64,000 nucleotides of DNA, taken from assembly GCA_963575745.1 (NCBI GenBank), contig CAUYUJ010021059.1, forward strand, positions 708,584 through 772,583, written 5' to 3'. The notes below the pieces were generated by a model. That model saw nothing but the letters and a program-made list of their open reading frames with translations, did not search any database and was not told the origin of the DNA. Source of the stretch: Prorocentrum cordatum. Lineage: Eukaryota > Sar > Dinophyceae > Prorocentrales > Prorocentraceae. Shown here piece by piece: positions 1-45,305 of the stretch; position 1 is the stretch's first letter, and the number at the start of each line of letters is the position of its first letter. A program made the position numbers and the translations under genes.

Positions 1-26
1 GGTGCCCTGTAGGTCTCAACGAGAGC

Positions 27-545
27 TTGAGCCCGAATAGAGGCTGCACTGCTGCAAAGGAGGGTCATCCACCGTTGGTTCCTATGACCCAGGCTGAGAT
101 CGACGAGATCAACCGTCGTCTCGGAACCACGGCTCACCGGAGCCCTATGGCCGAGGAGGTTCAGCCTCCGAGAGGACTTGTGCCTATTACCCAGGAAGAG
201 AAAGATGCGCTCAATCGTCTTCCTGGAATGCGGGGAAACCCGCCTGACGTCTCCAGTCAGGCCCAACAGCCAGAGATGATGGATGACGATGAACAGAAGG
301 TTCAGCGAGCCGCAGCAGATACGGAGCGCAGGCGAGTAGCAGACGAACGCGCCCGCGAGGCAACCCGCAGCATTCCTGCTGGAGTCACAAAAGATCTATA
401 TGAAGGGGGCAAGGAAGCCCCCACTCCAACCGAAGGCCAAGAGCGAAACACGTGCACCCAGGACGCCTTCGGGGGAAAGACAGAAAACGTCGGCCCGCTC
501 AGAGGAACTCGGGTTCGATGTGCAGATGGAGAGGCCCCGTTCTGA
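27..545 (+). pseudogene. Gag-like N-terminal fragment of the copia element
   Basis: Open frame that seems to be the most 5' part of the polyprotein visible here. It contains two related short blocks, PMTQAEIDEINRRL and PITQEEKDALNRLP, then an RGNPP hairpin codon run at 230-243, then a charged Glu/Arg-rich stretch that looks helical. From about 400 the coding sense passes to the next frame (400-2541), so this is probably one polyprotein split by a frameshift between 400 and 545. The start codon at 27 is only the first ATG available and the true start may be upstream of the window. I assign no biochemical function. Confidence 0.5.
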
Positions 546-2541
546 AATGCCGAAGTCACCGACTCGAGCAACTCCTGCGCAGAGACCTGACCCCAGGCAA
601 CAACCTCAGGACTCCTCGGAGGTCCGCAGACGACAGCCTAGCCGTAGCGGCTCTATCGCCAGCAAGGCCAAGGCTTTCGAGCGCACAGGGTTTACCCCTA
701 CGCCGGCCTCGCCTGTGGCGACACGCTCCAAGAGGTCTGAGGAAGGTGCTCCATCTAGGGGTACCTGGGTGCCTGAGATCAGGGGCAGCGCCAGCCGAGA
801 AACACCGCGGGGAAACCCGCCAGGCGCTGCAGCTGCAGCATCCTCCTCCTCAGGAGCCGCAGCCTCTTCGGCGACAGGGGCTCCTTTGCGGGGAAACCCG
901 CCTGAGGATAAGCTGCATCACCCAGGGGATACTTCCTTTACCAGCGGGAGTCAGGCGTTAATCAATGATCGACGTGCCCTGCGGAATCTTCCACCGATGC
1001 GCTCGGCGGACGAAGCGTTCATGGGGAGCTGCAGGCAGAAAGGTCTTGTTCCGAGAAGCAATCATACACTCAAGCAGCTTAGTAAATGCCTCAACAGGAT
1101 CTGCAGACACGCGCCTGATAGACCACACAATGCAGCGTGGAGCCTTGAGACGCTCGACGATCGCGATGGATGGATCAATCTCGATGAGCTCGCACGCGAG
1201 TTTCCGCGGCACAACGGACGTACGAGACAGGACGGGTACAACCCGAGAATGGATGAGGCCAAGATCATCGCCGAGACCTTCTACGATAGAACGGTTGACC
1301 AGATGGCTGCCATCATGATGGCGATCGCCCACGTTCGCGAGACGGGCGGTGAAGAGAAGCAGCGTCTGCAGTTCAAGGTCCTGGTGCGAGATTCTGGCAA
1401 ATCCGATATATTCATCCGTGCCTCGCAAGGGCACTCGTGGACGCTCAAGGTCCCTTGGTCGTTGTACAAGTACATTGTACTGCACGACAATCCTGCCGGG
1501 AGACCGGCCCCATGCCCCGAGGTTGCCACGCACGGCACACGGTGGATAGCCTTTGAGGGCATCATGTGGCATGGCCTTTCTTGCCGTAAAGAACACAACA
1601 CCAAGCAGAGAGGGACTGGCCGATCACGCATCCACTTTGTTCCGACGCTTCGTCGTCGCGGCGTGCAGAGTGGATGGGACCCCGACTCCGAAATCGCTAT
1701 CTTTGTGGACTGGCACCAAGCCCTGAAGGACGGGATCGAATTTTGCTGGCCCGACAATGGGGTTCTCCGATCAGAAGGAAAAGACGGCATTATTGAGCCG
1801 TATTATATTACACACGTGGAAGAACTCCCCACAGGAAATCAATGGCGGAACCCAGAATATCTGGGCAGTCGCCATGCACGCGTCTCCACTGCCATAATGA
1901 CGGCCCCGAACAGGTGGAACACTGTGGGCAGTGCTAGTATCAAGCACAGATGGTCTCTTGACCGAGAGGCTAATGAGCCTCATACGGTTCATGGTCAAAG
2001 ACAGGTGGGGGACCATTACAGCCCAACAGTGCTGGGAAACCAGCCCGAAATCCACCAGATCTTCATGATCAACGAGAGCGAGGCAGGAAGCGCGGCTCCA
2101 AGCCGTGCTCCAAGCCAAGGGCCTAGTGCCATATCTTGGCAGGTCCTCAGCACCTCGGATCTGGATCAGATCGCGGCTGCTTTAGATCCTGAGCAGGTGG
2201 AACAGCTAGCGGACAGACTGTGCCAGCAAGATCCCTGGGCCGCAGGTCAGGGAGCTATGTCCGCCATGGTGACACGTGACCGCCAGGCCACGCAGGGAAA
2301 CCGGCCCGTTAATGGACTCAGAAACGACATGCCCGAACCGCAGGGAGACCCGCAAACGTTCGGCCGCATCTTCGGAGAGCCTGCTCGATTCGAGCAGATG
2401 CTAGGGAGCCCCTCGCATAGCATGCACACCGAGGGGCATGGCCCCAGTGGCGACACCACCAGCGCAGTCTCCGTTTGGGACTCCTGGTCGGTCTGCCACG
2501 AATGGCACTCTCATGGAGCGGATCGCCGCGGCCAGAGCTGA
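400..2541 (+). CDS. Retroelement polyprotein segment with a KptA/Tpt1-like RNA 2'-phosphotransferase domain
   Basis: A 713-residue uninterrupted frame. Residues 1-220 are proline/serine/alanine-rich with RGNPP runs. Residues about 222-485 match the KptA/Tpt1 fold: an LSK..L....CRH helix motif (Arg236, His237), DDRDGWINLDEL, IRASQGHS (Arg340), HGT (378-380) followed by W..F.GI...GL, and RSRIHF (Arg408 or 410), ending with DGI.F...NGV. These are the positions of the Arg-His-Arg-Arg active site known in this family. Known members transfer an RNA internal 2'-phosphate to NAD+, for example at spliced tRNA junctions. That this copy is active, and on which RNA, is inference. The C-terminal 220 residues are low complexity. 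The frame survives although downstream domains are broken. Confidence 0.8.
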   Translation: MKGARKPPLQPKAKSETRAPRTPSGERQKTSARSEELGFDVQMERPRSEMPKSPTRATPAQRPDPRQQPQDSSEVRRRQPSRSGSIASKAKAFERTGFTPTPASPVATRSKRSEEGAPSRGTWVPEIRGSASRETPRGNPPGAAAAASSSSGAAASSATGAPLRGNPPEDKLHHPGDTSFTSGSQALINDRRALRNLPPMRSADEAFMGSCRQKGLVPRSNHTLKQLSKCLNRICRHAPDRPHNAAWSLETLDDRDGWINLDELAREFPRHNGRTRQDGYNPRMDEAKIIAETFYDRTVDQMAAIMMAIAHVRETGGEEKQRLQFKVLVRDSGKSDIFIRASQGHSWTLKVPWSLYKYIVLHDNPAGRPAPCPEVATHGTRWIAFEGIMWHGLSCRKEHNTKQRGTGRSRIHFVPTLRRRGVQSGWDPDSEIAIFVDWHQALKDGIEFCWPDNGVLRSEGKDGIIEPYYITHVEELPTGNQWRNPEYLGSRHARVSTAIMTAPNRWNTVGSASIKHRWSLDREANEPHTVHGQRQVGDHYSPTVLGNQPEIHQIFMINESEAGSAAPSRAPSQGPSAISWQVLSTSDLDQIAAALDPEQVEQLADRLCQQDPWAAGQGAMSAMVTRDRQATQGNRPVNGLRNDMPEPQGDPQTFGRIFGEPARFEQMLGSPSHSMHTEGHGPSGDTTSAVSVWDSWSVCHEWHSHGADRRGQS

Positions 2542-3457
2542 GCATGGCACAGCTCTTTTGAGCCTGATGCCACCGGGCACTCCAACGAGTCTGCAGGGAA
2601 ACTTGCCCGGCACTCCAGTACACAACCGACCTTTTGCTGGCCAAACTATTGCTGCTGGAGTGCCTGATGACTACCGCGCAAGGGTGGCAGCTGCGGTGCA
2701 ACAGGTGCCGAGTCACAACCTGCCCCACCCGAGCGGTCAGAGGTGGAGGCCAGCCTGGTCCTGGGAGCCAGAGGGTCCGAATCCACGTGACCCTGCTCGG
2801 CAGCGAGCCTTTATCCCGGCCTTCAATGCTCATCCGAGCATGGCTCAGGGCCAGAGGCCAGCGCCAGCACCAATGGATCCGCCACTGTACCCAGACGGGT
2901 CTAGAGTCCCGAACAGATTTGTTCGCGAGACGGCGGATCAGTTTCATAGCCTTACGAATGTGCGCTGCAGTGACCAGCCCATGTATCCGCACGTGGATTT
3001 CATGCCTGCACCGACAACGCCAGAGGTGGCCGTCCAGCCTACTGCCCATTCGATATCACCAGGCAGTCGGGGAGTACCAGGCTACATCAGGCAGACGTAC
3101 CACACTCAACAGGCGTGTTTTAGGCGCAGGCAGGTAGTACAGAGTGTACGTGACCAAGCACGTGCAGCCGCACTTGAGGTCGTGAGGAACAGAGGCTCAC
3201 CCATGCGAGGAAACTCGCCAGCCGTGTCGCCCGCAGCCTCCACTACGGCAGCTCCTCCAGCAGTGGTTGCCGCAGCGCCGGAGGCACTGGCTCCCGCAGG
3301 AGATCCTCCAGCTGCTTTCCTGGGCTCCGAAACAGTCCTGGAGCGGCGGCGGCGGGTGTGCCCTAGGGCGGCAGACGTGGAAATCTATACTGGATGGAAG
3401 ACACCTGCGCGGTATGCCTCGAAGAGTTTCTGCCGAGGGAGAACATCTACCGCTTGA
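2438..3457 (+). pseudogene. Proline-rich linker region of the copia polyprotein
   Basis: A 339-residue open frame overlapping the end of the Tpt1-containing frame by about 100 bases, in the next frame; a frameshift near 2440-2540 probably separates them. It is rich in Pro, Arg and Gln, contains QGNLP (hairpin at 2593) and MRGNSP (hairpin at 3205), and has no recognisable catalytic motif. It leads directly into the RING finger in another frame at 3394, so a second frameshift lies near 3390-3450. It most likely corresponds to the disordered inter-domain part of the polyprotein. Confidence 0.5.
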
Positions 3458-3762
3458 GGTGCAACCATCTGTTCCACGAGGAGTGCTGGAACTCGAATGT
3501 GGTGGGCCATGTTGCGAACCAGCGAGAAGGAGATCCTCGGCAACCAGTATGTGCTATCTGCCGAGCGCCAGGTATCATAGCGCCATCGTTTCCATGGACC
3601 GGCTCCGTCACTCAGGCTCCCGAACAGGCAGCGAGGGAGCTGCGGGAGTCGAGGAGCATGGTGGAGGAAATGAAGGCCAGTACGCTGGACAGGCAGACAG
3701 CACAGTCCCAACAGCGGGGAGACCCGCCGGAGGAGGTGAGGACGCCGATGGAGACGGGGTAA
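3394..3762 (+). CDS. RING-H2 zinc finger segment of the copia polyprotein
   Basis: A 122-residue frame beginning MEDTCAVCLEEF. The ligands follow the C3H2C3 RING-H2 pattern: Cys5, Cys8, Cys23, His25, His28, Cys31, Cys53, Cys56. RING-H2 domains of this form normally recruit ubiquitin-conjugating enzymes, so an E3 ubiquitin ligase activity is the family expectation; its target here is unknown. After the finger comes a short helical, Glu-rich segment and a GDPP run from the hairpin at 3714. The ATG at 3394 is convenient, but the domain is probably internal to a larger polyprotein whose upstream part is in another frame. All eight zinc ligands are intact. Confidence 0.75.
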   Translation: MEDTCAVCLEEFLPRENIYRLRCNHLFHEECWNSNVVGHVANQREGDPRQPVCAICRAPGIIAPSFPWTGSVTQAPEQAARELRESRSMVEEMKASTLDRQTAQSQQRGDPPEEVRTPMETG

Positions 3763-3780
3763 TTCGACCAGCTGATCCCG

Positions 3781-4575
3781 ATGACGGCGCCACAGCAGGG
3801 AAACCTGCCTAATACCCCACCTGCGCCGATTCTGCCAACTCATTACGAGCCTGGAGTCGGGCAGGTGGCTCCTCCGATGTCACCCCAAGGTGGGGGTGGG
3901 ACCGAGTTGCCACTAGACCCTGAACAGCTGCGAGAACTGCGTGTTCGCCACTTCCAGACCCAGATGGACAACGCACACACCACGTTCATGCTGGACGCCG
4001 ACAATCCTGAGAGCGAGTCGTTTGACCTCTCAGACTCTTCAGTGGCGACAGCGGCAACAGCAGTCAGGGCCGTCGAGCTCTCAGCTACGAACAATGAGTT
4101 CGACGAGTGGTTGCAATGCAGGGACCACCTTACGAATGAAGGATTACAGGACATCGCCCTTCATACGTATTTGACGCTGACGCGACGCACTACCCGCGAA
4201 CAGTACACGAGCATACGTGATGAGTATGCCAATTGGTGGGAGGAACAGGGCACTCAAGTCCAGAACGTGTCGTACTTCCAGTACATCGACCTGACACGTA
4301 TGGCCGCAGGAAGGCCAGGTGCCAGCACGATGCGGGGAGACCCGCCAAGAAGCACGACCGAGATGCGGGGAAACCCGCCAGACAGTGCAGCCGGCACGTC
4401 AGAGACAGTGCACATCAAGCAGCCGAGTAAGACATTTCTCGAGGATGGTGGAAATTCAATCCTCATAGACGTGGGCTCGAAGATTAACGTCATGGGAAAA
4501 ATACGAGCCGCAAGTTCTTCCAGGCTGCTGAGGCACATAAACGTCTTTGTACGTTTGAACTTCGTTCTCGATTGA
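3781..4575 (+). pseudogene. Gag-like region and N-terminal half of the retropepsin
   Basis: A 264-residue frame. Residues about 35-180 are acidic then helical, with a conserved-looking FDEWLQCRDHLTNEGLQDIA block and an NWWEEQG motif, as expected of a structural or linker domain. Two MRGDPP/MRGNPP runs come from hairpins at 4332 and 4365. Near the end is DGGNSILIDVGSKINVMG, matching the Asp-Thr/Val-Gly-Ser active-site loop of retroviral-type aspartic proteases. The frame is lost near 4500-4575 and the rest of the protease continues in another frame (4572-5357). Function by family: cleavage of the polyprotein. The broken frame makes this copy unlikely to work. Confidence 0.6.
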
Positions 4576-5357
4576 ATATCAACGGGGTAGGCGAGGGGTC
4601 GGCCCCAGCTGATGCCGCGGGCACTTTCAGCATTGCCTGCGAGTGCCAGGGCTCGACCCAGCTCGACTCGTACAAGACTATTGTGTCAGGCTGTGGCAAG
4701 GACCTGCCAGCTATCCTGGGCCCCAACAGTATGCGGGACAAGCGCGCTATCATTGTGCTCGAACGAGGCCAGGAGAAGCTGATATTCCCTTGGAAGGGAC
4801 AGGTCAAGATGGAACTTCCCGAGGGCTCCAAGATCATGTCGACAACGAAGTTGCCATCAGGACATCTGTCAGTCAGGTGTGATCGATTTGGAGCCGCGGG
4901 GCAACCCGCCTCGGGTACAAGTACAACATCGTTCCAGACGGTGCTGACAGGCGAGCCGTCCCCTGCGCAAGAGCGCCAACAATTGCAGGGAAACCTGCCT
5001 CAGGGGTTGCTCGCGATACTCGCCAAGGCGACGATGAGAGGCGACAGCGTCGATGATCTGGAGACGTTCGATTGCTTCGTAGCCAGGACACTGGCCCAGC
5101 ATTGCGGACTTGTACCCATGGATGCTGGACGGTCCCGCCGGAAGATAGTGATGGGATACACGAGCCATGAGCTGCAGACGGTCAACGACGCAAGGTCGAA
5201 AGGCTTATTGAAGCAGCTGGTGGATAATCCATCCATGCTGGCCACGTTTGCGGCGCAATCCGCCTCTGAGGCTACCGCGCGCTGCAGTGCTGAGCTCCAG
5301 CATCTGAGGGAAGCCCAGATGCTGGCAGATGTTGCAGGCGCATCTTCTTTATCTTGA
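4572..5357 (+). pseudogene. C-terminal half of retropepsin plus conserved downstream segment
   Basis: A 261-residue frame. Residues about 45-80 read DLPAILGPNSMRDKRAIIVL followed by KLIFPW, the pattern seen after the active-site loop in copia-type proteases (a loop Ile-Leu-Gly, then a strand pair). It complements the DVGS motif about 300 bases upstream in another frame. The remaining residues hold two hairpin runs (4896, 4985), a LETFDCFVARTLAQHCGL block and a final helical region, none of which I can assign. It ends at a stop at 5355-5357, and the following 60 bases have no long frame. Confidence 0.55.
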
Positions 5358-5415
5358 AGATGGCAGGGCGACGCTGCCCCCTCGTCGCCTTGCCTGATAG
5401 CCGAAAGGCCAGGGG

Positions 5416-6368
5416 GTGACAAGGACAGCGGGGCAACCTGCCATAGTAAAAGAGCTTTCGTCATCGAAGATACGAGAAAGGCTTGCGCTGACCTCCGCAC
5501 CCGAGGTTAGTTATGTCTGTGATCGCATCTCCCACAATGAGATCATGGCGACTGTGGGCACAGATTACCTGGGTGCGGTGATCAGTGGGGACTATACACT
5601 AATATGGGTTAGTACCCTAGGTGACTGGTACGTACGAACCCCAGGAAAAGAGAGTAGCCCCACACTGGTCGCGCATTCAAAACCTTCTGACAGAAGCTAA
5701 GAAGCTCCGCGAGAAAATTATAGTGTTAGGCCCCCCAGGATACGTTTGGAAGTTATCTCCAATACGTGATACTCTGGAAGATCTTAATTAAGTTGACGGT
5801 AGTGCGGATGCGGTTATGTCATTTCGGTATTCGGTTTAATCTGCAAGACAATCCACCGAGTGGTACCTATATGCAGGTAGCCACATCGATACCGACTAGC
5901 TCTAAGTTGTGGGCATGTACGTGCAAACTGGCGATACCACAACATGTGTTGGATTGGTACGGCCAAACGGTACGACATGCTGAATGGCGAGCCCAGACAC
6001 GCATCACACTTATCCGTCACCTCAACGACAAAATCCTGGGAAGCAGCACTACGCACGGGAACGTGCCGATATACTTGAACACCTATACACGTACGGATCA
6101 CAACATACATCACTATGTGGCGACCAATAAAGGGGGACCGAAATTGTCTGATGTCATCCGACGTGTAACGATCAACCTGGACGCCAACGCGATTATTCAG
6201 GATATCGCAGTAGCCGATCAACCAACAGGATATGATTGGGCATGCACCACTACCTACAGGGGTTGCCAACATCAGTACACGGATGTACTGGCAGCCCGAG
6301 GAACCTGTCATGTTCGGGAACGAGCCTACTCAATCACCACAGAAACCCAGACGCGTCATCATAGATGA
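5416..6368 (+). pseudogene. Unidentified decayed coding stretch of the copia element
   Basis: Two open frames, 5416-5700 (94 residues) and 5766-6368 (200 residues), in different frames. The second contains GTYMQVATSIPTSSKLWACT and a long polar region with Thr-Ile-Asn-Leu segments. I recognise no domain. Position between protease and the methyltransferase-like domain, and a codon feel like that of the flanking frames, suggest remains of the same polyprotein. The hairpin at 6053-6066 (stem GCACG/CGTGC, loop GGAA) is inside it, and another (5428, wobble) is at the start. The second frame overlaps the next one by about 135 bases. Confidence 0.4.
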
Positions 6369-7764
6369 CTGTCCTTCTCCCCTCCCGACTCTGGCGATTG
6401 ACGCAGGTACCTACTCATCAACGACGATGGGCACGCAGACCGGTGGACAAGACGAGCAAGTCTTACTTACGGAGTCGCGTATCAAACAGAAGGAAAGGCT
6501 CAAAGCCGAAAAGGAGGCAGGCATCAAGCCTCGCCGCATCAAAAAGCACGTTGAAGATGGAAACGATGATTGCGGTGCCGACTTGTCAGGGCTCGGACAG
6601 GATCTTATGGCGGCCTGGAGCATTGACGTCCCTGTCGAGCTGATTAGCTCAGATGAGGAAGATGACCTGTTCCTTACCCTCCCCACATCTATGCCCGACA
6701 CACACGCGGACATATATATCATAGTGGCTACTCTATGTTATGGTCACAACAACTGCGTGGATATGTTGGAGCTTTGCGGAGGAGAGGGTCGCATTTCAGA
6801 GCTTGCCTTCTCAAGGGGTCTCTCCTCAGGAGGCAACTTAGACAAGACCACGTGTGTCGACCTGGGAGATCCCTCGGTGCAGCGAGCTGTAGAGCACTAC
6901 TTCGCAGTATGCCACGTACGAGTAGCCATGCTACAGCCCAGCTGCCGCACCACAGGACCACCATCCTACTACAACTACAAAGCCAACTATAACACTTGGG
7001 AACAGCATCATAAATAATATGTGCCACGCATAACTTACTGTGGTAAAACAGATGCTACTCAAGATAATGCACGGAGGTGGTTTACACGCGAACAACCCAC
7101 AGGAACATGGGTGGATGATATTTCCCCATGGAAAGAACTTGCCGACCGATCGCATATCACAACCGCACGCATCGACCAATGTGCGACGGGACTTAAAGAT
7201 ACGGCTGGTGACTATATCAAGAAGCCGACAAATATCACCAGCAACGACGAGACAATTCTTAAACCCTTTGAGCGACTCAAGTGCAACGGTAAGCATGCGC
7301 ACGCACAACCGTGCAACAGGGAGCTTTCACTGGCACAAAAATACACTCGAAGACTGCAGTCTGCCTTTGTGGAAGCCGTCTATCTGGCGAAAGCCATCGA
7401 CACCACGCGCGGAGAAGCGCCTACACGAACTGCGCATGCTTAACCTGCCGACCTTCCTGATCAAGCTGAACCAGGAGAGGGTATGAGACGCATCGGCGAT
7501 CGCATCATCCCAAAAGTGGCTACATGCCCAGCATGCATCGACAATGTCCGAAAGGGCAGTCCCAGCCACAACAGAGATCCTACACAATGTAAGCATCATG
7601 ACTCTATCTCTGTATACTGGCCATGTCCTGCATGCCAAAGGGACCTTGCGAGAAGCAAGGGTGTTAAGAACCACCTCGACACTGAGCCCGGCAAATGCCG
7701 TTTTGCTGAGCCGTTCAAACTCCCAGATGATCATGATCCCGAGGGCCGCAATGCGCCAGCTTGA
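6232..7764 (+). pseudogene. Methyltransferase-like domain, conserved copia domain and Cys/His cluster
   Basis: One reading frame interrupted by stops at 7015-7017 and 7441-7443 and ending at 7762-7764. After a Lys/Glu-rich linker comes VDMLELCGGEGRISELAF, which looks like motif I of a Rossmann SAM-dependent methyltransferase, then a CVDLGDP acidic strand and AMLQPSCRTTG where a methyltransferase would have its catalytic loop; the Pro-Cys-Gln of true cytosine-5 enzymes is not seen. Then follow REQPTGTWVDDISPW and ITSNDETILKPFERL, a block I associate with dinoflagellate copia polyproteins. The last 90 residues have CPAC...C and CPACQRDL...H...C clusters, probably zinc binding. Enzymatic activity is doubtful. 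Confidence 0.55.
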
Positions 7765-9966
7765 TGGAAACCCTTACCCAAGCCTGGGGAGGGCCACGCT
7801 TCGGCATCGGGTGGCCGTCAGGGCGCTCGCGCCAGACCACCACGACCACGAGCCTTTGGGAACGCTGATCCTACATCTGGCGCCAGCAGTTACGACATGC
7901 TGCGAGACGCGCCCGAGCGTGGAAACACGCCCTCCGCGTCTTCAGGCGAGCCGCCACAAGTAGCGGCCCGCCGTGGTCGCCTGCAAGGCGTACCTCCACC
8001 ACCAGATGCAGTTGACGAGGGGGGCCGACTGCGGAGAGCCACGAGGAACCCTCTTGCCTCAACCGGCTCGGGGGCTCCACGACTGCCCGACTGGACGAGA
8101 TTTGACATCCAACGCAGTCTGCAAAACCTCCGTAGTCACGAACCTCACGTAGTCAAAAAGGAACTCCGTAAACTGCACCTACGGTGGCATCATGCGAAGG
8201 AACCCGAGATGAGGCGGATCCTAGACAAAGTGGGACTGGATAACGTGCGATTAAATATGACCAAAGAAATCTGTGACACATGTCGGGAATGTAGAGCATG
8301 GGAACGTCCAGGTAATTCTACGCTACCTTCCGTAAGCCTTCCTGGAAATTGGCTTGACGAAGGCGAAGTAGATCTCATGTTTTACAAGAAACGAACCATA
8401 TTTCATATTATGGACCGATGCATCCGCCTGGCAGCAGGTCGAGAGATTGCTGATCGAGAACGTGACACTATACTCGACGCCTACCACTATTGCTGGATTG
8501 CCGATCATGGACCCAAAGTCTTGTATTCAGATGGAGAAGGCGCCCTCAACAATGACACTGCCAAGGCCATGATGGCGAACAAGGGTGCGACACTTCGTAT
8601 CCGAGCACCTGGCCAACACGCGACCTCGATCGAGTCACGTAACGGCATCCTTAGGGGTACTCTCCATATGATTGAGGAAGAGCTGAACAGACACAACATC
8701 CCCGTTGTATTTACTAGAGCATTGGCTGAAGGCATCTTTGTCACCAACGCTTTCACGTTTTACAACGGAGTATCGCCGTACCAAGCACACACTGGGCGAC
8801 AGCCCTCTTTTCTTCCTGACCTCGACACCCTTGACTTCCCTAGGGGGCCCGAGACGTCAGGCCACGAACGAGAACGCCGTGTGAGGGAAGTTAGCCTGGA
8901 AGCAATAACTCAAGCCACGGGTGTAGCTAAGACACATCGTGCTCTCAGGGCTAAGACGGCCCCAGATGGTGCTCGCCTTTACTCAGCAGGGGACTTGGTC
9001 GACTATCACCGACCTACAGCCACTAAGGACGACCATGGAGGCTGGAATGGCCTGTTTCCTGTGATCCGTAACGTGCCTGAACGAGGACACGTTGTCGTCA
9101 AGGCAGGATCGCGTGAGGTAATTGTAATGTACCCTGATGCTCGCCACACGCTATACATTGAATGCCTTCTTACCAGGGAACTTGGCATGGACAACATGGC
9201 CATGCAGACCGTCCTTACATATGTGGCACACCTTGGTGCAGGGAAACCTGCCGAAGTCTTTGGCTATATTTCAGACTACAAGGGGAATCTCAATCTTTCG
9301 GACGACAGCAAGTTCCACCCGCGCGTACACCTTGCACTGCAGTATCTCGTGCGAAATTATTTCCGGGCTGAACGTGTAATAGCCGTGAGATTGGCCAAGA
9401 ACGTGTCAAATCTACCTGCAGTAAAGTACGCCACCGGGTCTGCACTCATCCACTACGACAATGATGTTAACCCAGCCTTCCACTATTATGAGTGTGTGGG
9501 CACCGGCCTGAACATCTCTCAAATCACTGGTAGCACTCACTCCAGACTCATCCAGTGCCTGACGTCACAAGTTCCTTCCCTAGGATTTCATGATGACCTT
9601 GCCAAGTATCAGCACTTGGGCACAACGTCTGGAGAACACGACCAGCCTGGAGACAGGCCTCCACCAGACACCCCAGGTGCTTCATCACCAAGTGAAAGTC
9701 GCCTGTCTACAATCTACGAAGAAAGCGAGGGACATGACATCGAGGCTATGATGATGGAGGAGTGGTACGATGAGTTGCGTATGGACCTTCATCCCACAAC
9801 GGTTATCGACGACCATCTCTACTGCGTCCCAACAACTATGCTGCCCGACCAATGTGTCTTGGTCTCAGCATTCGTGGACGAGGAAGATACCGTAGTGTCG
9901 GAGATGCTCGGAGACGAGCCTGAACTACAAGAGCCCTGTCTTATCTCTATGCTCGACTGCACCTGA
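7765..9966 (+). pseudogene. Copia integrase (zinc HHCC and DDE core) segment
   Basis: The same frame as the preceding segment, restarting after a TGA at 7762; an ATG at 7897 opens 689 residues. The zinc part is LHLRWHHAKE...CDTCREC. The catalytic triad appears as Asp in VDLMF (8371), Asp in YSDGEG (8530) and Glu in SIESRNG (8632), giving the DDE arrangement of retroviral-type integrases, which join element cDNA to target DNA. A beta-rich C-terminal segment (GDLVDYHR, GLFPVIRN, VVVKAG) resembles the usual integrase tail. The hairpin at 7917 lies near the start and the one at 9238 near the middle. The final 200 residues are acidic and lead toward the reverse transcriptase. The core residues are intact. 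Confidence 0.8.
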
Positions 9967-11147
9967 CGAGGGCTATTCTCTTGACAGTGATGAACATGGT
10001 CCTTATGTTGAGCTATGTTTCACACCAGAAATGTCAAAGGTAGTGTTGGATCAGACCCAACTTGCACAGCTTGAAACTGACATGGTCGCAACGATGAGAG
10101 TATATGTATAATCGGCTGCTAAACGTGCTGTGGTAGTCAAGGAAGCTGACCTACTCACCAAAGCCGATATAGCAGCACACCCTAAATAGGTTAGTGAAGC
10201 TTTGTACACCGAACTCAAGATCTGGCTTGACAACCGGTGCTTTGAGATGTTTGACCAACATCATGACATCCAGATATGTATACAAGTGGAAGTTTGTGAA
10301 GGTAGGCACCGAGAACGTTAAAACCATCTGTCTCAGACTTGTCCTTGCCGGATTCATGGACGCGGAGGCGTTCGATGTAGAAACCTTTTCAGGAATTGCT
10401 CGAAGGCAGTCCCAGAGGCTCCTGGCAAGTGAGGCGGCATGTCATCCAGAATGGAGCTTAGTATCTATGGATATCGACAAAGCGTTCCTCAAAGGTCTGA
10501 CCTATGAGGAACTTGCTCATGCCACCGGCGAGGAAACTCGCATGGTTTGCTTCACTCTTCCACCAGGAAGTGCCCAGGTGCTTCGTGCACTACCAGGCTT
10601 CTCTTCTTACGATGAAAGCCGACACTGCCTCAGGTGCCTCAAGCCAGGAACGGGTACAAAGGACGCCCCAAGAGCGTCCTCCCTCAAGCTTCGTACGACT
10701 ACACGAGCTATAGGCCTCATACCAGCAAGTTACGACCCTGAGTTTGAATTCAGTCAGGATCTGTTAACGGCAAAACATGTCGACGATATCAATATGACAG
10801 GCCTAGAGAAAAACGTAGATGACTATGTACAACGTGTCGAAAAGGTGTTTGGTAAATGCAAGCTCAACAAACATTCTTATACGAACTGCGCCGTTCGCTA
10901 CACTAAGAATGAACAAGGGGATGTGATCATGGATCAGGACGAGTACATTAAACAATTACGTCCTATCACACACCCTGAACTTACGGGAGCGGCGGCAGAC
11001 GCCAAAGCTACCAAACTCATCACCGACATGTTCGTTAGCCTGCGAGGAGCTCTCGCCTATGCCCTTCTTAGTCAAGTCTGGCTTATGGTGTATGTGGTCT
11101 CTCCCAGAAGATCCAAGAGCCCGCCAACTTACAAGTCAGACGACTGA
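9959..11147 (+). pseudogene. Copia reverse transcriptase
   Basis: Coding sense leaves the integrase frame near 9959, runs with two stops (near 10109 and 10185) to about 10250, then moves to the frame 10194-11147. Recognisable motifs: ELKIWLDN.CFEMF, SRYVYKWKFVK, MDIDKAFLKG (motif A, 10467 on), KPGTGTKDAPRA, and AKHVDDINM (HVDD, the copia form of the catalytic YVDD box, 10779-10787), followed by KCKLNKH and QDEYIKQL. This enzyme copies element RNA to cDNA. The hairpin at 10528 encodes GEETR inside the domain. The frame breaks again around 11100, where RNase H takes over in another frame. Confidence 0.85.
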
Positions 11148-11152
11148 ATGCT

Positions 11153-11848
11153 GTGGCGCGAAAGCTGATCAGCAGGCCGAAACGCATCACCTTCCCTCGG
11201 ATGAAACCGACGAATGAAGTAGACGTACACAGTGATTCGGGGTATCGGAAGCTCACCGGGGAGGAGGACGATGAAACCAAGGGCTACGGTATTCGTGGGG
11301 CTATCGTACGGCGAGGAAACTCGCCTCAAGGCAAGTCCGTCATTCACCTTTGCGACGGACTATGTAAATCACACCGACTGCAGGTGAGGTCCAGCTATGC
11401 CGCTGAGGCGCTTGCAGCTGCACACAATCTTGATGAATGTTATCCCACGCTCATCACTCTCCACGAGCTCAAGGCAGGGGCACTTACTCCACGACAACTA
11501 CGAGATATGCGTGAAGTTGGAGGCCTAGCTATCAAAGTATCCCTTACTATAGACGCTGAGTCTGTATACAAGTCGCTATCCAGCAAAGATCTTAATATAC
11601 CGACGGAACGGACTTTGTTGGGACATATCAGCTGGATACGTGAGCTCATGGATATAGGCATAGTGCATAACGTACAGTGGTGTGATACTAGAGACATGAC
11701 CGCAGATGGGCAGACAAAGGGGAGTATCGATCGGGAGCTGCTTTTGGAAGTGATGTCAGGCACTCAGTCATTTAAGTATGACGTGAAGCAGTTTGTTCCC
11801 TTTCGTGGCCCTAAGGACAGCAGTCAGCCTAAGTCGAATCAGTTTTAG
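11153..11848 (+). pseudogene. Copia RNase H domain
   Basis: A 231-residue frame. Catalytic carboxylates are visible as Asp in VHSDSGY, Glu in SSYAAEALA, Asp in TIDAESVYK and Asp in DMTADGQTKG, the arrangement of Ty1/copia RNase H, which degrades the RNA strand of the RNA-DNA hybrid. RGNSP near residue 58 is produced by the hairpin at 11311. The domain itself looks intact, but it is out of frame with the reverse transcriptase by a shift near 11100-11150. It ends with TAG at 11846-11848, followed immediately by the hairpin-rich block. Confidence 0.85.
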
Positions 11849-12330
11849 TCAGTCCTTGTTGCCCCCGCGGTCCAGTTTGCCAGCACGGGCGCCTAATACA
11901 GAGGCGCCCTCCTAGCCGCTCGGAAGCGAGCCCTACTTTTCACGCTTGGCAGCGAGCCTGTTCAGATTGGTTCAGGCTCTTTGCTTTAATACCTTTTTGC
12001 CTGGAGAGGAATAGCCTGTTTGGCTTACCTCTAGCTGGGCCGATAGCCCTTTGATATCCAAGGGGCTATCCTGCGTATGCGTGAAAATGTTTTGCGAGGA
12101 AACTCGCCGGCGAATAATCTCGCCCTACAGTCTGGTGTTAGGCCAGACTGTGCGTACTGTTTTTCTTGCAAACAGTTGTGCGCGCGGCCTTTCTAGAGCC
12201 TAACGGCTGCGCGGCTATACTCTCCGTCTCCTCCCCTCCCGACTTTAAGGGTGGCTCTTTGGGAGATGTTATAGAGGATCGGGAGTATAGCCTGCGCGCC
12301 CTTGCTTTTGGCTCAAGGCACGCGCGCCCT
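11849..12330 (+). other. Hairpin-rich non-coding 3' region of the copia element
   Basis: At least eight inverted repeats lie end to end: 11887-11893/11903-11909 (GGGCGCC), 11918-11922/11927-11931 (GCTCG), 11954-11960/11973-11979 (GAGCCTG), 12005-12009/12028-12032 with inner AATAGCC/GGCTT, 12042-12053/12059-12070 (12 bp with one wobble), 12094-12107 (GNRA hairpin), 12128-12135/12143-12150 (CAGTCTGG), 12156-12162/12170-12176 (ACTGTTT), and a larger pair 12209-12222/12283-12297 with one bulge. No long frame is convincing. It may be an LTR or 3' UTR with packaging, priming or RNA-stability structures. Confidence 0.7.
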
Positions 12331-13435
12331 AGTTGCCCGGACACTGCTGGTGTTCGCTATGTGATGGGAAGATCATTACATCGATCTTATCTTATTTCAT
12401 CCATCCACTCCCCATACTGAACTGACACAGCATGGAATTGGATGCTATTTGACTTACCATAGTAATTCCAGACTGAGGGGGAGGAGGAGGAGGAGCAGCA
12501 GGAGCAGGAGCAGGAGCAGGAGGATGAGGAAAAGGAGGAGGAGGAGGAGGAGCGAGGAAGATGACTGAGTAGGACGAGCGAGGAAGGAGAGGCGACGAAA
12601 CAAGGACGATGGGAAGGAAAACGACCGAGGAGGAAACGGACAGGGGATGACGAGGAGGAGGAGGAGGAGGAGGAGGAGCCGGAAGGAGGAGGAGGAGGAG
12701 GAGGAGGAAGTGGGAGGTGGCAAGAAGGAGGGTTGGGATGATGAGCGGAAATGAGTTATTACCGAGGTGGTGCCGAGATGTTACATCACACCCACCCCTA
12801 AGCCAATCATTAAGGCTTGCCCCGTCATATTGCCTCGTCTTCTGGGGCTTTCCCTCCTACTGACGACCGTGCAATAAGTGAGCGTTTCCATCTGTCGGTG
12901 CGCAATGCAGTGTAAGTTGACGAACTCCTGCGTGCCGATAGGGGACGCCGTTGATGGAGACTTCCGCGTGCGCCTGTTTCGTGCGGTACCCTGTATGAAC
13001 TGATGCAAGGCGCGCTGCATGGTGCGCGAGAGCCCCGCGCGGCAGGACCTCGTGGCATCAAGTAGCTTGTTCATGATAGTACATGTGTGTGGAATTTATG
13101 TAGAACGACATGCGCCTATTTGCCATGCACAGGTGTGTATGTGCATGTGTATGTACGGATACGTAAACGATGAAGCGGTCTTATGGTATACCTCACGTAT
13201 ATGATAATGTACGTCGTGTAAGTGCATAATGATTCACATCTCATTGTACACATATACGTCATATGAGTGTGTAGATCTACACAAGACTGCGTTGGCGTTT
13301 CGCGCCATGCATCTTGGTCGCCCAACCAGCCCATCCAGAAATGATGCCCAGGGGAGTTGAGGTGATCAGGTAAGTGGGGGAACATGCAGAAGAACAAAGG
13401 GTATGGAGTCGTCATATACCCTAAGAGGGAGAGGA
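12331..13435. repeat. Purine-rich GGA tract and unassigned spacer
   Basis: Bases about 12476-12725 are an impure GGA/GAG trinucleotide tract. The flanks hold no convincing exon. Bases 13080-13270 are rich in TGTATG/ACATAC-type alternating sequence leading into the SINE-like copy at 13256. Confidence 0.8.
13256..13325 (+). repeat. SINE-like family Y, copy 1
   Basis: Shares the core ACAAGACTGCGTTGGCG, then a CGCGCCATGCATCTTGGTC-like stretch, with four other loci (22845, 31185, 57890, 59155). The core folds as TGGCG (13293-13297) with CGCCA (13303-13307). Copies are preceded or followed by TATA/ACATAC-rich DNA. Confidence 0.6.
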
Positions 13436-34885: not shown

Positions 34886-34907
34886 TCCGTAGCCATTTTG
34901 GCTCAAG
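34886..34907 (+). other. Complete 22-nt dinoflagellate spliced leader at the 5' end of LINE 1
   Basis: The sequence reads T, CCGTAGCC, ATTTTGGCTCAAG in one run, identical to the known DinoSL. It is not an SL RNA gene, since the next bases are TCCGTAG rather than a GT donor. It lies 182 bases upstream of the LINE ORF1 start, so it marks the 5' end of a trans-spliced mRNA that was reverse-transcribed. The bases just after it (TCCGTAGTG, TTTCGCTCAGG) look like a second, decayed leader. Confidence 0.9.
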
Positions 34908-45270: not shown

Positions 45271-45305
45271 CTTGAGCCAAAATGGCTTGAGCCAAAATGG
45301 CTTGA
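45271..45305 (-). other. Tandem spliced-leader relics upstream of LINE 2 ORF1
   Basis: On the minus strand the 15-nt 3' part of the dinoflagellate spliced leader, CCATTTTGGCTCAAG, occurs twice head to tail (45300-45286 and 45285-45271). A further five matching bases (TCAAG) precede them at 45305-45301. Such relics arise when a trans-spliced mRNA is reverse-transcribed, re-inserted, expressed and trans-spliced again inside the old leader. They mark the 5' end of the ORF1 transcript and the junction with the plus-strand ORF2. Confidence 0.85.

Follow-up and report, generated by a model that had tools for sequence, protein, structure and literature searches.

Background

The role of dispersed stem-loops in guiding RNA packaging is in dispute, owing to the degeneracy of the signals put forward, and the dispersed packaging signals of single-stranded RNA (ssRNA) viruses are debated. 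In the models for MS2 and satellite tobacco necrosis virus, many short stem-loops lie across the coding RNA and are perhaps read by the capsid. Excerpts of one account (PMC6475782) present such signals as short, degenerate and recently proposed. Here we describe an array that likewise consists of many short stem-loops across coding RNA, in a Ty1/copia-type long terminal repeat (LTR) retrotransposon of the dinoflagellate Prorocentrum cordatum. The starting point is a stretch of 64,000 nucleotides (contig CAUYUJ010021059.1, positions 708,584 to 772,583 of the forward strand), hereafter called the window. Unlike the viral signals, the dinoflagellate motif is nearly invariant, is evident by count and lies in an LTR retrotransposon. 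As in the dispersed-signal model there are many sites along the genomic RNA, 38 of them shared by the copies compared.

The Psi signals of retroviruses (SL3 of human immunodeficiency virus and the GACG loops of murine leukaemia virus) are also tetraloop hairpins in the RNA of a retroelement with a CCHC Gag. However, Psi consists of few hairpins in the 5' leader only, whereas the sites shared by copies of the P. cordatum element are found over the whole RNA and have GNRA or GNCA loops. The boxB hairpins of lambda and P22, which are bound by N, likewise have a 5-bp GC-rich stem and a GNRA-like fold, and an arginine-rich reader is proposed here as well. The boxB loop, however, has five bases and occurs in few copies, in contrast to the P. 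cordatum array, which has dozens of copies and an excess of tetraloops only. Organellar GC clusters and double-hairpin elements are similar in that many near-identical small hairpins occur per genome, but these insert as units, whereas the P. cordatum hairpins are found on one strand and no clean insertions were seen. No hairpin array of this kind was found described in titles and abstract openings on GNRA tetraloops and LTR retrotransposons, dinoflagellate copia elements, packaging hairpins and P. cordatum repeats, with subscription papers outside the scope.

The hairpin array

A pattern scan of the window detected 20 perfect hairpins of the form GCNNG-GNRA-CNNGC, all on the plus (sense) strand between positions 230 and 12107. 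The sequence-only reading of this DNA had counted 17 perfect hairpins on one strand of a 12-kb element. The single strand and the retroelement as carrier stand, but the number is 20 and the element is about 16 kb long, starting 3.6 kb before the window. The array extends into this upstream part, with 8 further perfect hairpins at L129:6828-9548.

The minus strand of window 1-12460 has no hairpin of the GCNNG form and only one GNRA hairpin of another form. The remaining 51.4 kb (window 12601-64000) has two GNRA hairpins on the plus strand and six on the minus strand, none of them of the GCNNG form. In 300 dinucleotide shuffles of window 1-12460 the GCNNG form had a mean of 0.013 (maximum 1) compared with the 20 observed, which rules out chance or composition as the source of the array, and the mean for any 5-bp GNRA hairpin was 0.50 (maximum 4). 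The other strand, shuffled sequence and the unrelated sequence examined, where an equal density had been named as evidence against selection, are all without the hairpins.

The excess is limited to tetraloops. In the element set (178 kb) there are 418 GC-outer hairpins with a loop of 4 nt, and 13, 38, 46, 26 and 33 with loops of 3, 5, 6, 7 and 8 nt, respectively; a pentaloop of the boxB type was rejected because of the 38 against the 418. A known RNA family was also rejected as the identity of the hairpin, since Rfam gave no match above the gathering score in the window, L130, L131, L185 or L183.

Local folding in context gave a stem pairing probability above 0.5 for 27/28 hairpins in the window and its upstream part and for 30/32 in L130/L131, another copy of the element. 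The median pairing was 0.99 and 0.98, respectively, compared with 0.77 for 31 control hairpins with other loops. The base at +15 is C in 25/28 and 28/32 hairpins, and extension of the stem is possible in only 1/28 and 2/32. Because the C is kept although the base before the stem seldom pairs with it, the unit appears to be a hairpin of fixed length followed by C. In L130/L131 there are 36 G..A-loop hairpins with a mean spacing of 431 nt, and the spacing is indistinguishable from random (Kolmogorov-Smirnov test, p 0.17).

Conservation and covariation in ten copies

Nine extra copies of the element were picked for the hairpin pair at sites 807 and 888 and read as two pieces each. They have 31-39 GC-outer GNRA hairpins each on the sense strand and no GC-outer hairpin on the other strand. 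The copy with 39 is located on C558, and a block of its sites is repeated (L146:6161-7860 and L146:8437 to L147:110); judged by eye, part of the element has probably been duplicated internally. Merging of 40 site clusters resulted in 38 sites, and the alignment of every site covers 9 or all 10 copies. At least one perfect copy was required for a site, and the set is therefore biased towards conserved sites. In this set 338/377 site-copies combine a perfect stem with a G..A loop, compared with about 36% expected under flank-like drift in a simple star model. Pairwise identity in the stems is 0.982 for the outer pairs, 0.962 for the inner pairs and 0.972 for the closing pair; it is 0.904-0.963 in the loop, 0.895 at base +15 and 0.843 in the flanks. 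GNRA loops were found in 355/378 aligned site-copies (GAAA 225, GCAA 68, GAGA 45, GTAA 10, GGAA 6 and GGGA 1), and in the remaining 23 the loop is of another kind or there is a gap.

Compensated stem changes occur between the element copies, as the sequence-only reading had required of selection on structure. Full compensated changes between copies are seen at four stem pairs, -3118 (GC/AT), -1408 (GC/CG), 231 (AT/GC) and 3612 (AT/GC), and comparison with the commonest pair gives 12 double Watson-Crick cells, 12 G-U cells and 26 broken cells. When all 68 distinct 14-mers are taken together, including those with broken stems, pairing is seen in 92.9% of the cells compared with 72.4% in shuffles (0/500 as high), the covariation score is 0.530 compared with 0.142, and slid partners pair in 24-46%. 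Both inner pairs adopt all four Watson-Crick types. Stems with both inner pairs A-T are absent in the main clade, that of the window element, as would be expected from the need for stability. The earlier list of paired stems was correct in the pairing but incomplete, because GCCGG, GCCTG and GCTCG also occur. The strand and shuffle controls and the compensated changes in the copies support the earlier claim of selection on RNA structure, and it is very probable that the structure as such is under selection, at the RNA or the DNA level.

Among the perfect hairpins of the window, all on the plus strand, the stem GCGGG/CCCGC is the one at 230..243, 807..820, 888..901 and 4365..4378 with a GAAA loop, at 3714..3727 and 4332..4345 with GAGA and at 4896..4909 with GCAA. 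In 6/10 copies site 230 has GCGAG/CTCGC and in 6/10 site 3714 has GCAGG/CCTGC, both compensated; sites 807 and 888 are those used for choosing copies. GCAGG-GAAA-CCTGC is found at 3795..3808, 4985..4998 and 9238..9251, where a sister clade at about 64% nucleotide identity (the C1 clade) has GCGGG-GAAA-CCCGC. GCGAG-GAAA-CTCGC is found at 3205..3218, 10528..10541 (in the reverse transcriptase (RT) region), 11311..11324 and 12094..12107, the last between the final open reading frame (ORF) and the 3' LTR. The other stems are found once each: GCCGG-GAGA-CCGGC at 1495..1508 within the KptA/Tpt1 match, GCTGG-GAAA-CCAGC at 2031..2044, GCACG-GGAA-CGTGC at 6053..6066, GCGTG-GAAA-CACGC at 7917..7930, GCCTG-GAGA-CAGGC at 9645..9658 and GCTCG-GAGA-CGAGC at 9906..9919. 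At the last of these the linker of L001 (C1 clade) has GCGGG-GTCA-CCCGC, placed by eye from translations.

Further sites on the same strand have a perfect stem and another loop. At 5082..5095 GCCAG-GACA-CTGGC has a GNCA loop, at 2795..2808 the loop is GCAG (GCAA in 8/10 copies), and at 11918..11931, 3' of the last ORF, it is GAAG (GAAA in 8/9 copies). Near-perfect copies include GCGAG-GCAA-CCCGC at 355..368 (perfect GCGAG/CTCGC in 8/10 copies), GCAGG-GAAA-CCGGC at 2292..2305 (perfect in 7/10), GCAGG-GAGA-CCCGC at 2340..2353 (outside the 38 shared sites) and GCAGG-GAAA-CTTGC with one G-U pair at 2593..2606 (perfect in 8/10). GCGGC-GCAA-TCCGC at 5250..5263 is GCGGA/TCCGC in 7/10 copies, GCGGG-GCAA-CCTGC with one G-U pair is located between listed ORFs at 5428..5441, GTTCG-GGAA-CGAGC at 6312..6325 is GCTCG-GAAA-CGAGC in 8/10 copies, and GCGCG-GAGA-AGCGC at 7407..7420 is GCGCG/CGCGC in 9/10.

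Related clades and genome counts

Eighteen further places were chosen from the hits of a genome search for the GCGGG-GAAA hairpin, each read at 1 kb. Three belong to the main clade, 11 to the C1 clade and four to a third family. The C1 clade (on C1: L186, L185, L001 and L184) has an array of its own, mostly GCGGG-GNCA-CCCGC. A stretch of 10.0 kb has 24 G..A-loop hairpins, of which 3 fall within a GCC repeat, and another 5 kb has 11; the minus strand of these stretches has 3 and 1, respectively. At the third loop base the ratio of purine to pyrimidine is 33:3 in L130/L131, whereas the C1 clade has 4:20 (Fisher p 3e-9), or 3:18 when the three GCC-repeat hairpins are left out (p 5e-9). The third family (L182, L164, L183 and 19 other aligned copies) has signs of Gag and RING, by eye, and mixed loops, with 9 hairpins on the plus strand and none on the minus strand in 8 kb. 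Its hairpins are decaying at shared sites, and 15/20 aligned copies retain at least one perfect G..A-loop hairpin. An old repeat family (L153:1-600 and L166-L181, 74-84% identity to L153, from 40 scored of 803 first-look candidates) has, by eye, roughly five hairpin sites in decay and a stretch rich in RS.

In the 4.13-Gb assembly, with the reversed pattern as control, the GCGGG-GAAA hairpin GCGGGGAAACCCGCC occurs 4,051 times compared with 22 reversed, GCNNGGAAACNNGCC 24,693 times compared with 1,663, and the GCGGG-GNCA hairpin GCGGGGNCACCCGC 16,925 times compared with 995. A UUCG loop on the same stem is at background in the genome (36 compared with 63 reversed). Among the first 100 listed GCNNGGAAACNNGCC places, 82 have a fully paired NN (chance 1 in 16), and most are in element copies. 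The P. cordatum genome is given in a review (PMC11453091) as 4,750 Mbp with an assembled rate of 87.37% and a GC content of 59.7%.

No viral contigs were found as relatives by protein pattern. Viral stretches chosen because each has one exact copy (1.02 Mb in total) carry GC-outer GNRA hairpins about equally on the two strands (65/73), with at most 3 per locus. Among 14 metagenome protein relatives, those aligning across site 9238 do not read AGKPA (by eye).

Possible functions

Three functions had been proposed in the sequence-only reading, and docking of a protein or packaging appears to be the best of these, as far as a function can be judged from sequence. A tentative interpretation is that the hairpins are repeated docking sites for the Gag-like protein of the element and serve packaging or compaction. 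The sense RNA of the copia-type element bears GC-anchored 5-bp stems with a GNNA tetraloop, mostly GNRA in the main clade and mostly GNCA in the sister clade, usually followed by an unpaired C. The putative reader of the GNNA-capped hairpin would be the Gag-like protein, which combines a CCHC zinc knuckle with a stretch rich in arginine. Thirty-odd sites, one per about 430 nt, would serve to mark and condense the RNA of about 16 kb, to package it and to set it apart from others. New sites appear to come from point substitution, with local in-frame tandem duplication as an added source in the C1 clade.

The spacing of about 430 nt, the restriction to the sense strand and the clade-specific loop within one nucleus together suggest recognition by the element's own protein. 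Gag is proposed because arginine-rich peptides and zinc knuckles bind GNRA-like and tetraloop hairpins, as in boxB/N and the retroviral nucleocapsid. KptA is another conceivable reader. Several observations weigh against this interpretation. The zinc-knuckle match in the Gag-like ORF of L130 (PF00098, E 0.0014) is slightly sub-threshold, and the arginine-rich stretch beside the knuckle, alike in L130, L182 and L186 (one per clade in three clades), was judged by eye. A single packaging signal is enough for known retroviruses, and few sites are demonstrably common to different clades. Within sites the broken cells (26) exceed the double Watson-Crick changes (12), and the inner pair CC is missing from main-clade stems, which stability alone does not explain. 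The copies were chosen via exact matches at sites 807 and 888. The hairpins favour one reading frame, so the peptide may matter too, and a host RNA-binding protein could equally read the array. As an observation apart, the Gag-like ORF (L130:653-4216) has hydrophobic stretches close to its start (residues about 165-190) that resemble membrane segments by eye.

It is also conceivable, though on the whole doubtful, that each of the coexisting clades writes its own RNA identity tag through its coding sequence, with the same stem and a GNRA or GNCA loop, and that the tag is read by the clade's own Gag. If so, the tag would be a self/non-self packaging code under codon-independent selection that co-diverges with its reader. 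An explicit signal present in thousands, with loop variants between clades and with copies that miss single sites, makes the packaging question directly testable. The array suggests that RNA structure can shape the coding sequence of a retroelement throughout, and the natural hairpin variants are a ready set for studies on how RNA-binding proteins read tetraloops.

A host factor for export, stability, translation or localisation might bind the hairpins instead of Gag and be exploited by the elements. The array is present in several related families and in both coding and 3' non-coding RNA, which is in line with a host reader. On the other hand, the loop flavour varies by clade within one host, which is unexpected for a single reader, and 72.5 kb of non-element DNA, which samples little of the host genome, has 3 such hairpins on both strands together. 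A host reader is considered unlikely.

The GNRA loops could also act without protein, by docking into receptors that fold or dimerise the long RNA. GNRA loops are known to dock in helices and the predicted local folding is stable, but the sequence-only proposal of tetraloop receptors found little in its favour in simple string searches for the classical motif, made without shuffle control. The classical 11-nt GAAA receptor is not enriched in the same RNA, with its half CCTAAG present 0-2 times per piece in six pieces and a receptor-like pair once in seven pieces. The C1 clade has mainly GNCA loops, and docking of this kind is improbable.

Gain and loss of sites

At sites -761 and -3064 the hairpin is absent from L130, L138 and L140 owing to substitutions, with indels nearby but none inside the hairpin. 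Site 10528 is without the hairpin in L001, where the length is equal. Presence and absence at -3064, -761, -1735 and 10528 are a matter of substitutions with constant hairpin length, and it therefore seems that single-base changes create and abolish sites. No clean insertion of 14-15 nt was seen at the four sites.

The C1 clade has rows of hairpins spaced by 30 nt, which form a tandem unit and differ in number between copies. There are two on C1 (C1:2048963-2049006), three on C2 (C2:1702410-1702483), three on C83 and at least four on C159 (G000:C159:9266-9369), with the homology of C159 judged by eye. Rows of 24 and 18 nt also differ in number between C1-clade copies (by eye). Local in-frame tandem duplication is, from the sequences compared, a second route to new sites in this clade.

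The near-identical units of the C1 clade and the variable number of tandem units of 18, 24 and 30 nt might indicate a mobile or self-copying hairpin that spreads in the elements without benefit to them. This parasite had been another of the earlier proposals. However, substitutions that leave the hairpin length unchanged account for the gains and losses studied, the lack of clean insertions speaks against mobility, the stems diverge with compensation and more slowly than the flanks, and only a single strand carries hairpins. A mobile hairpin is thus very improbable.

Coding constraint

Shuffling of synonymous codons, which leaves the protein unchanged, removes the hairpins. In seven ORFs of the window 17 hairpins were observed compared with summed means of 1.0, in six ORFs of L130/L131 32 compared with 1.5, and in the first ORF of L185 13 compared with 0.55. 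In the latter ORF all 12 AGxPA peptides are coded GCG GGG NCA followed by CCC (11) or CCT (1), whereas each of the four bases occurs at the third position of the final Ala codon, which the hairpin does not include. Ahead of the zinc knuckle lies the peptide RRGNPR, for which 5/9 listed main-clade copies use the codons AGG CGG GGA AAC CCG CGA. Three more copies have silent differences in these codons and still form a GNRA hairpin, and L132 has RRGSPR and a GAAG loop at this position. In L186, the one C1-clade copy read, RRGNPR is coded CGC AGG GGC AAC CCT AGG and no hairpin is formed. Repetition of one peptide as the origin of the array is ruled out by the codon shuffles and the codons of L186.

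If the peptides (xGNxP and AGxPA, for example as linkers or processing sites) were selected, the hairpin would be a by-product of repeated codons. Each clade does have a preferred frame, namely frame 2 in 22/32 hairpins of L130/L131 and frame 0 in 13/13 of the first ORF of L185. But all three frames carry hairpins, although unevenly, including those that read GEETR and AGKPA, and two sites are 3' of the last ORF. Loop base 2 varies among C1-clade copies with a change of amino acid (the search pattern fixed the other positions). Given also the loss on synonymous shuffling and the same peptide without a hairpin in L186, selection on the peptide in place of the structure is hardly credible. Least probable of all is a structure that acts in DNA, as a hairpin of single-stranded cDNA or of the chromosome in, for example, integration or recombination, because the sites span the whole element and are not concentrated at its ends, although GNNA loops are stable in DNA too.

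The carrier element and its proteins

The carrier is a Ty1/copia-type LTR retrotransposon of about 16 kb with an RT of the RVT_2 type. Alignment to copy L130 places its 5' end at L129:6378, which is 3,622 bases upstream of the window, and part of the 3' LTR is found at 12241..12451 on the plus strand by alignment to the LTR of L130. Direct repeats of 235-273 bp with 89-97% identity form the LTRs in 5/6 copies examined, and the remaining copy (L144/L145) has only a 59-bp LTR match.

The ORFs of the element are on the plus strand. The one at 400..2541 has an RNA 2'-phosphotransferase (KptA/Tpt1) domain (PF01885, E 3.3e-19), and the one at 2438..3457 covers the stretch preceding the RING region, where Pfam calls a RING-H2 in the homologous ORF of L130 but not here. 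The ORF at 7897..9966, located 5' of the RT, is related to integrase-region proteins; one homologous protein carries PF00665, and Pfam does not call this domain in the window. The copia-type RT is encoded at 10194..11147 (PF07727, E 1.3e-07) and the same domain is found in L131 (E 4.2e-09).

In L130 the KptA/Tpt1 domain and the RING-H2 finger share one ORF (L130:5322-7991). To our knowledge, no other retroelement carries this cargo. Titles and abstract openings on KptA with retrotransposons gave no such cargo, with subscription papers outside the scope, and the KptA-RING ORF has no relative at E <= 0.001 among 8,000 scored candidates. The P. cordatum gene model P0017, named protein-tyrosine-phosphatase, includes parts of the element that resemble KptA and a protease (partly by eye) and appears to be exonised or mis-annotated element sequence. 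Another protein named from P. cordatum has 97% identity over 9% of a C1-clade ORF.

Relics of what we take to be the dinoflagellate spliced leader, which are presumably typical of retroposed mRNAs in this group, are also present. A full CCGTAGCCATTTTGGCTCAAG is located at window 34887-34907 on the plus strand and a tandem CCATTTTGGCTCAAG pair at 45271-45300 on the minus strand. The spliced-leader-like CCATTTTGGCTC(AAG) is found in the Gag region of four copies, at L130:2557 and L144:2576 and at the corresponding sense position in L136 and L142, and TTTTGGCTCAAG is found inside the 3' LTR of the window element at 12306-12317.

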